Assembly (NCBI GenBank): GCA_016839875.1
Contig: JAEOTK010000269.1
Location: forward strand, 1 to 34,518
Source of the DNA: Candidatus Heimdallarchaeota archaeon
GTDB lineage: Archaea > Asgardarchaeota > Heimdallarchaeia > Heimdallarchaeales > Heimdallarchaeaceae
Direction of reading: 5' to 3'
DNA: 34,518 nt
How positions within the stretch are numbered: the first letter of the stretch is position 1; the number at the start of each line of letters is the position of its first letter. Under the pieces are notes generated by a model, which saw nothing but the letters and a program-made list of their open reading frames with translations, did not search any database and was not told the origin of the DNA. Below are positions 15,903-16,082 of this stretch, piece by piece. The position numbers and the translations under genes are program-made.

Positions 15903-16082
15903 CCTAGTAAGGTCAGACAACATCTGGATGCGTTCCGGATGGTCAGGAAAGTTAAGTCCTTCAACGTGTGGCTTTGTACTAAGTTCCGAGAGGGCTTGGG
16001 AACAGCCGTTCGCTGCGATGCGTCGCGGCCATAGTGAAGGGGTAACACTCAGACCCATTCCGAACCTGAAAACCTTACTAGG
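15903..16082 (+). rRNA. Circularly permuted 5S ribosomal RNA (candidate)
   Basis: All conserved archaeal 5S blocks are present but in swapped order. The canonical 3' half comes first: GGAAAGTTAAG (15946-15956), helix II 3' strand CCTTCAAC (15958-15965), the domain with GTACT, CCGAGAGGG and GGGAACAGCC (15976-16007), and the helix I 3' strand GCTGCGA (16012-16018). A 4-nt TGCG loop then joins it to the helix I 5' strand TCGCGGC (16023-16029). After that come CCATAG (loop A), helix II 5' strand GTGAAGG (16034-16040), and helix III/loop C with CCCATTCCGAAC (16054-16065). Helix I (7 bp), helix II (GAAGG/CCTTC plus 2 bp across a bulge) and the GGCT/AGCC helix all pair. The new ends are closed by a perfect 11-bp stem (15903-15913 with 16072-16082) followed by T6. 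An extra hairpin ATCTGG/CCGGAT occupies 15922-15940. It is the only 5S-like sequence in the window. Confidence 0.88.

Follow-up and report, generated by a model that had tools for sequence, protein, structure and literature searches.

A circularly permuted 5S rRNA gene of Heimdallarchaeota, shared by many Asgard archaea and predicted to yield a circular 5S rRNA

The window (the whole stretch of DNA that was analysed, 34,518 nucleotides on the forward strand of contig JAEOTK010000269.1 from a Candidatus Heimdallarchaeota archaeon) carries at positions 15902-16083, on the plus strand, a 5S rRNA gene in which the 3' half comes first and the 5' half second, with a tetraloop between the two (Table 1). 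A preliminary description of this DNA had read the locus as a circularly permuted 5S rRNA gene with a new closing stem, and this reading is supported: the order is conserved and covarying in relatives. Inspection of the sequence bore out that each archaeal 5S block is present once, with the 3'-half blocks before those of the 5' half. The closing stem is, as had been described, a perfect 11 bp followed by six T residues, helix I forms a hairpin of 7 bp (16012-16018 with 16023-16029) closed by a TGCG loop, and the TATA-like element ATTAAAAA (15872-15879) has its centre about 26 nt before G15902. Three features go beyond that description, namely an intact helix III (UCAG/CUGA), an extra covarying hairpin in the leader, and a bulge-helix-bulge at the junction. 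A gene for tRNA-Ser(GCT) lies at 15689-15771 on the minus strand, divergent from the 5S gene, and in five related loci a tRNA gene is found about 0.1 to 2.3 kb from the permuted gene.

Table 1. Features of the permuted 5S rRNA locus (window positions) and what each assignment is based on.
Feature	Position	Strand	Basis or remark
Predicted promoter, CCAATAGCAAC plus TATA-like ATTAAAAA	15861..15879	+	Conserved in related-locus alignment
Predicted primary transcript, permuted 5S rRNA	15902..16083	+	Ends placed by the distance to the promoter and by the T-run
Closing stem, 5' strand	15903..15913	+	15903-15912 paired in 17/17 sequences
Leader hairpin, 15921-15928 with 15934-15941	15921..15941	+	One pair with two-sided change in 5/17
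Bulge-helix-bulge central helix, 5' strand CAGG	15944..15947	+	4/4 pairs with 16065-16068 in 21/21 cluster sequences
5' bulge AAA, predicted endonuclease cut 15949/15950	15948..15950	+	Cut inferred
Predicted 121-nt circular 5S rRNA	15950..16070	+	Folds as 5S with helix III; rotated form is a one-piece canonical-profile match
5S 3' half	15951..16018	+	Loop B, helix II 3' strand 15957-15965, helix I 3' strand
Helix V, in 3' half	15970-15973/16004-16007	+	Alignment and fold
Helix IV, in 3' half	15981-15987/15992-15997	+	Alignment and fold
Helix I hairpin with UNCG tetraloop 16019-16022	16012..16029	+	Alignment, loop survey
5S 5' half	16023..16069	+	Helix I 5' strand, helix II 5' strand 16034-16041
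Helix III with loop C, in 5' half	16049-16052/16066-16069	+	Alignment, cluster comparison
Central helix, 3' strand CCTG	16065..16068	+	Pairs with 15944..15947
3' bulge AAA, predicted cut 16070/16071	16069..16071	+	Cut inferred
Closing stem, 3' strand	16072..16082	+	Ten pairs 16073-16082 kept in 17/17
T-run, predicted terminator	16083..16088	+	Sequence

By alignments and profile the gene has the fold of Rfam 5S_rRNA (RF00001), with three arms, helices I-V and the loop C and loop E blocks. Order and score are not those of the family, as the halves are reversed and the match, at 15895-16021, reaches 24.3 bits against a gathering score of 38. A canonical profile, built from ten canonical Asgard 5S genes, finds two half matches on the native window DNA (profile positions 49-115, then 3-48) and a single match (4-115, 54.5 bits) once the order is re-joined. 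The halves are swapped as in permuted RNA genes that are circularised via a bulge-helix-bulge. The strand folds with a z-score of -3.9, none of 200 shuffles folding as well.

The same order was sought in related genomes, and 16 loci have it in addition to the window. Of the 17 related loci, 16 carry the permuted gene at most 1.6 kb from the same OB-fold gene, the contig of the remaining one (L002) ending where its 5' half begins. Relatives of the OB-fold neighbour are named Candidatus Heimdallarchaeota and Heimdallarchaeaceae, and alignment of this protein led to 18 loci in GTDB genomes, 16 of them Heimdallarchaeota, one from an Asgard group archaeon (L010, which we count among the Heimdall-type loci) and one Thorarchaeota. 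Among 300 stretches matching a pattern search of IMG/VR, none is a relative.

A family model (R1) and an alignment (A6) use 17 sequences, leaving aside the contig-cut L002. The alignment has 99.3% of 850 cells paired and 32 double-change cells compared with 10.6 after shuffling. Eight pairs show two-sided changes, in helices I, II, IV and V and in the leader hairpin. All 17 sequences form the closing stem, with one-sided changes of G-U type only, and the G15902-U16083 pair is likewise kept in 17/17; U15913-A16072 holds in the window and is variable in the family. Directly after the T-run, RCGTTTAC is conserved in L003-L017 (ACGTTAAC in L005 and L010) and is missing from the window and from L001.

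A wider alignment (A8) comprises 57 of 60 diverse permuted references (all except L108, L115 and L127). Here 85.0% of cells are paired compared with 60.3% after shuffling, and 424 double-change cells stand against 144.5 (s.d. 12.9); covariation in this set is strong. The sequence of the closing stem is not the same from one lineage to another. Helix III does not vary in the window's family; across lineages 29 of the 30 clusters have it fully paired locally (4/4), by 12 distinct pairings, and L107 has 2/4. Because of this, the local helix III is to be preferred for the mature form, and the possibility that helix III is paired with the leader in the mature RNA was rejected.

For the origin of the mature molecule we favour, with a probability of about two in three as judged from sequence, a process in which the permuted transcript is cut at the bulge-helix-bulge and ligated, likely by RtcB, to a 121-nt circular 5S rRNA. 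Transcription would begin at 15902 and stop in the T-run, and the leader (15902-15949) and the trailer (16071 onwards) would fold into the bulge-helix-bulge and then be removed. The tRNA-splicing endonuclease would cut within both bulges, between 15949 and 15950 and between 16070 and 16071, after which ligation, probably by RtcB, would join 16070 to 15950 and so restore the junction helix III-AA-GUUAAG. The 3' strand of helix III, released from the leader, would then be free for its usual partner. Helix I would remain closed by the tetraloop, so that the ribosome would contain a circular 5S rRNA. The preliminary description had considered direct use of a linear molecule and, alternatively, circularisation followed by re-cleavage. 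Circularisation is the better supported of the two, because the bulge-helix-bulge sits at the junction.

The motif was counted in 75 sequences with a helix III break, falling into 30 clusters; the count leaves aside the contig-cut loci L074, L093, L130 and L131, the misaligned L108, the near-duplicate L120, the loop-C-break loci L113, L114, L116-L118 and L123, and some further permuted loci. A central helix with 4/4 pairs, together with a 3' bulge of 3 nt and a 5' bulge of 2 or 3 nt, is found in 22 of the 30 clusters, and 19 of these 22 also have at least four contiguous outer pairs. Measured against the usual form of the motif (a 4-bp helix, bulges of 3 nt and a flanking helix), 19/30 clusters thus possess it with its outer stem, the 5' bulge being of 2 or 3 nt. 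In a control of 870 swaps of leader and trailer between clusters, 25.3% gave a 4/4 helix and 0.57% gave one that also had the outer pairs. The other eight clusters lack a 4/4 central helix, with 0/4 in L129 and 2/4 in L104 and L107.

The splicing endonuclease cuts after the second base of a bulge. When this rule is applied to the 22 clusters with a 4/4 helix, G54 (E. coli numbering) being taken as the third base of two-base 5' bulges, the joined product has exactly AA as the linker from helix III to GUUAA in 17 clusters and AUA in the other five. The same AA is found at this position in canonical Thorarchaeota-class genes (L019, L180), and the products of those 17 clusters regain the canonical junction, helix III-AA-GUUAAG. 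The complementarity between leader and helix III was also considered as a leftover of a tandem duplication and rejected, since in 19/22 clusters the leader 4-mer differs from the strand of helix III. In L099 (G055:C510) two permuted 5S genes occur in tandem with core matches 39 nt apart, and, given such copies, a tandem origin of the permutation itself is possible.

A second position of the break was found in the Loki-like loci L113, L114 and L116-L118 and in L123, where the gene opens inside loop C. The cutting rule applied to L113 gives ACCCGGUCCCAUCCGAACCCGG, which occurs in the helix III-break relative L115 (the match is a 22-base loop C stretch; a longer string of 30 bases is not present, as the gene ends there). 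Applied to L123 it gives CCCAGAAACAUUCCGAACCUGG, which is found in L098. That two break sites rebuild a known sequence under the rule of a single enzyme is the best evidence for splicing.

All 21 sequences of the window's own cluster have the 4-bp helix, as CAGG/CCUG or, in several, as CGGG/CCUG. In the window each bulge is three bases long. The closing stem directly follows the 3' bulge, and its 5' strand is separated from the central helix by about 30 nt that include a hairpin, so that the outer stem is split from the central helix and the motif is not a textbook one. Contiguous outer pairs number 0 to 3 in 20 of the 21 sequences and five in L075, the second copy of G026. The unconstrained fold pairs 15913-15916 with 16066-16069 instead of forming the motif, and the fold of the predicted circle regains helix III, which is absent from the unspliced fold. 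The interruption by a hairpin lowers our confidence in circularisation, and it is one of the points favouring the alternative that the permuted transcript is used directly as a linear 5S rRNA with its ends in helix III, held by the closing stem and never ligated, as in permuted mitochondrial 5S rRNA. Also consistent with this alternative are the predicted promoter and T-run that bracket the closing stem, and the pairing of that stem throughout the family. Nevertheless, we consider linear use unlikely: a leader strand that competes for helix III recurs as a bulge-helix-bulge in 22/30 clusters and would offer no obvious gain if retained, and the breaks in helix III and in loop C both fit the rule of the endonuclease.

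Less likely still is that a circle is formed and then re-opened at the helix I tetraloop, resulting in a canonical linear 5S rRNA. The rebuilding of both loop C and helix III by the splicing rule also favours this alternative, and there is a precedent in permuted tRNA genes, which pass through a circle that is later re-opened (PMC10085705). The loop of helix I, however, is a UNCG tetraloop in 31 of the 57 permuted sequences, and the helix I segment ranges from 17 to 29 nt, a hairpin of up to 29 nt in some lineages suggesting that it is kept. An unsystematic look at the loop revealed no cleavage element. Helix I is therefore likely kept closed, and re-cleavage at the TGCG loop, which the preliminary description had coupled to circularisation, is not indicated because of the tetraloop. 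A further point stands against the predicted circle: archaeal 16S and 23S rRNA, and not 5S rRNA, are stated to be often circularised in pure cultures (PMC12918454).

The enzymes that circularisation would need are encoded in relatives. The splicing endonuclease was found in 19/19 genomes searched, with two genes in 18 and one gene in one, and RtcB in 17/19; a search for RtcB in the other two draft genomes was negative. The Heimdall endonuclease genes presumably form a two-subunit enzyme. Enzymes of this type can accept relaxed motifs, while at least one, that of M. kandleri, has a constrained specificity (PMC6379350). The RtcB frames at G026:C1:1674331-1677159, in G004:C91 and in G007:C158 contain a large intein-like insert after profile position 50.

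The permuted core was also modelled (R2), and a search with this model over 227 genomes, covering Asgard archaea only, gave matches in 147 of them at E up to 0.001. Eight weak matches (G065, G066, G067, G069, G070, G072, G179 and G180) were counted as canonical, as R2 scores of canonical genes reach 39.1 bits in one comparison and 41.6 bits in G067 and all genomes counted as permuted score at least 46.6; the sequence was inspected at part of the loci, and at the others the permuted call is that of the R2 score. The census then gives 139 genomes with a permuted gene, 63 with a canonical gene, four with both and 29 in which neither was found. Rfam 5S_rRNA is over its cut-off in 64/227 genomes, one of these matches, in G031, overlapping a permuted locus. 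When the order was checked with the canonical profile in 115 loci, which include some duplicates and canonical loci chosen deliberately, 80 had swapped halves, 22 matched in one half only (loci that are contig-cut, weak-scoring or broken in loop C), 12 were canonical and one was without a match.

At a stricter cut (R2, E up to 1e-7) the permuted gene is present in 55 of 58 genomes of the Heimdall class, in 63/83 of the Lokiarchaeota-like class to which G123 belongs, and in 0/47 of the Thorarchaeota class; G109, with E = 1.3e-7, passes R2 at 0.001 and fails this class cut. Within the class of G123, genomes G086-G093 have no permuted match (0/8) and mostly canonical genes (6/8), which suggests that the permuted or canonical state changed inside a mostly permuted class. 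One member of this class, G088, has three tandem canonical 5S genes (L174, G088:C1:1399700-1400950) on a contig of 4.36 Mb. The labels Loki-like and Hodarchaeales-like rest on the names of relatives of neighbouring proteins. For a neighbour protein in G123 these are Promethearchaeota, including several Lokiarchaeota, and a few other Asgard names, and many of the closest named relatives of the permuted G050 (Heimdallarchaeota) are Hodarchaeales or Hodarchaeota. The permuted G175 encodes a tubulin that aligns over all 425 residues to PDB 7evb, which we take to be the Odinarchaeote tubulin and which is the basis of the Odin label.

A canonical 5S gene elsewhere with this copy unexpressed, or an artefact of assembly, had been named in the preliminary description as grounds for rejecting the permuted reading. 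The first is not borne out among relatives, as no canonical gene is over the RF00001 cut-off in the 17 Heimdall-type genomes. The same order recurs in the 16 related loci and twice on a single contig of 3,326,783 bases in G026, so that it is due neither to chance nor to a single assembly artefact. Both forms occur together in 4/139 permuted genomes (G028, G042, G111 and G135). The contig of the canonical copy also bears an MreC gene in G111, a LysR-type gene in G135 and a fused Rpb2/Rpb1 gene in G028, contig-mates which suggest that these contigs are foreign to their bins. While the search for canonical copies covered the genomes of relatives, with the window's own genome outside its scope, and the two forms do co-occur in those four genomes, it is extremely improbable that the permuted copy is a pseudogene or assembly artefact accompanied by a normal 5S gene elsewhere, as it is conserved with covariation in many genomes, including on long contigs, as canonical genes over the cut-off are absent from the Heimdall-type genomes, and as three of the canonical copies look foreign.

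Some loci depart from the common layouts when inspected by eye. In L186 (G085:C63) an apparent third break lies between the 5' strands of helices II and III, with helix III first and the first 5' block after helix I; this locus is canonical by the order rule (profile 24-114) and permuted by R2 (49.9 bits). L185 and L191 are permuted Loki-like 5S genes with an extra, intron-like insert in loop C, at the place where the loop-C-break genes open. Finally, L073/L173 (G028:C117, near 8277-8414) is a 5S gene of canonical order with an insert at the same helix III site. This insert has a textbook bulge-helix-bulge, with central helix CACG/CGUG, bulges GAA and AAA and outer stem CAGUCU/AGACUG; its splicing would yield ACGG-AA-GUUAAAC, and the insert hairpin is absent from the unconstrained fold. 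The contig, with its fused Rpb2/Rpb1 gene, likely comes from a foreign archaeon in the bin. The insert is a possible illustration of how a 5S intron gives rise to a permutation.

Few RNAs are as conserved as 5S rRNA, and to our knowledge its natural permutation is known only from mitochondria. The permuted mitochondrial 5S rRNA (mtPerm-5S) of Valach et al. 2014 is said to have helix I closed into a hairpin and its new ends elsewhere. It differs from the Asgard gene in being organellar and of bacterial type, and no match to mtPerm-5S, presumably a family within the scanned library, is listed for the window gene among 4227 Rfam families at E up to 10. We know of no bulge-helix-bulge for mtPerm-5S. 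The circles formed from permuted tRNA genes are re-opened by RNase P and tRNase Z, in contrast to the Asgard 5S rRNA, in which helix I appears to stay closed, and the 5S rRNA of Halococcus morrhuae is of normal order. Permuted tRNA genes resemble the present case in their swapped halves and in a junction that passes via a bulge-helix-bulge to a circle (PMC3978253, PMC3218864), and 5S expansion segments such as that of H. morrhuae resemble it as extra sequence in an archaeal 5S rRNA; the insert of H. morrhuae is, however, retained, and 'permut' does not occur in that text (PMC7812874).

A close likeness in layout and machinery is offered by the permuted SRP RNA of Thermoproteus, which is circular and is a substrate of the splicing endonuclease (PMC4731332). 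The two share the swapped order, a short leader and trailer, a bulge-helix-bulge at the junction, a TATA element 26 nt upstream, a two-subunit endonuclease and a canonical gene that had earlier not been identified. They differ in that the SRP RNA case concerns two named species and an established circle, whereas the permuted 5S rRNA, a part of the ribosome, extends over most of a phylum and its circle is a prediction. Archaeal circular pre-16S and pre-23S rRNA and the permuted 23S rRNA of Pyrococcus are likewise rRNAs joined by splicing endonuclease and ligase at a bulge-helix-bulge; there it is the transcript that is rearranged, post-transcriptionally, whereas in Asgard archaea the 5S gene itself is permuted (PMC7758197, PMC12918454). 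A search of the literature, with most subscription papers and preprints outside its reach, found no description of a permuted archaeal or a circular 5S rRNA, and priority is not established.

For the genomes of one Heimdallarchaeum study, 5S genes are stated to have been beyond prediction (PMC8813620); swapped halves, together with the predicted circle, would account for the report that this gene could not be located in complete genomes of the group. Taking the lineages together, we give slightly better than even odds to the broader proposal that in most Asgard archaea the 5S rRNA of the ribosome is a covalently closed circle, which the tRNA-splicing machinery produces from the transcript of a permuted gene, and that the permutation arose at sites of bulge-helix-bulge introns in at least two positions, helix III and loop C. 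Whether the gene is permuted, and where it is broken, provides a discrete character for Asgard phylogeny. If the proposal is true, close relatives of eukaryotes (Heimdall and Hodarchaeales-like lineages) would have a circular rRNA in their ribosomes, and the permutation would be a rare genomic character bearing on the ancestry of Asgard archaea and eukaryotes.
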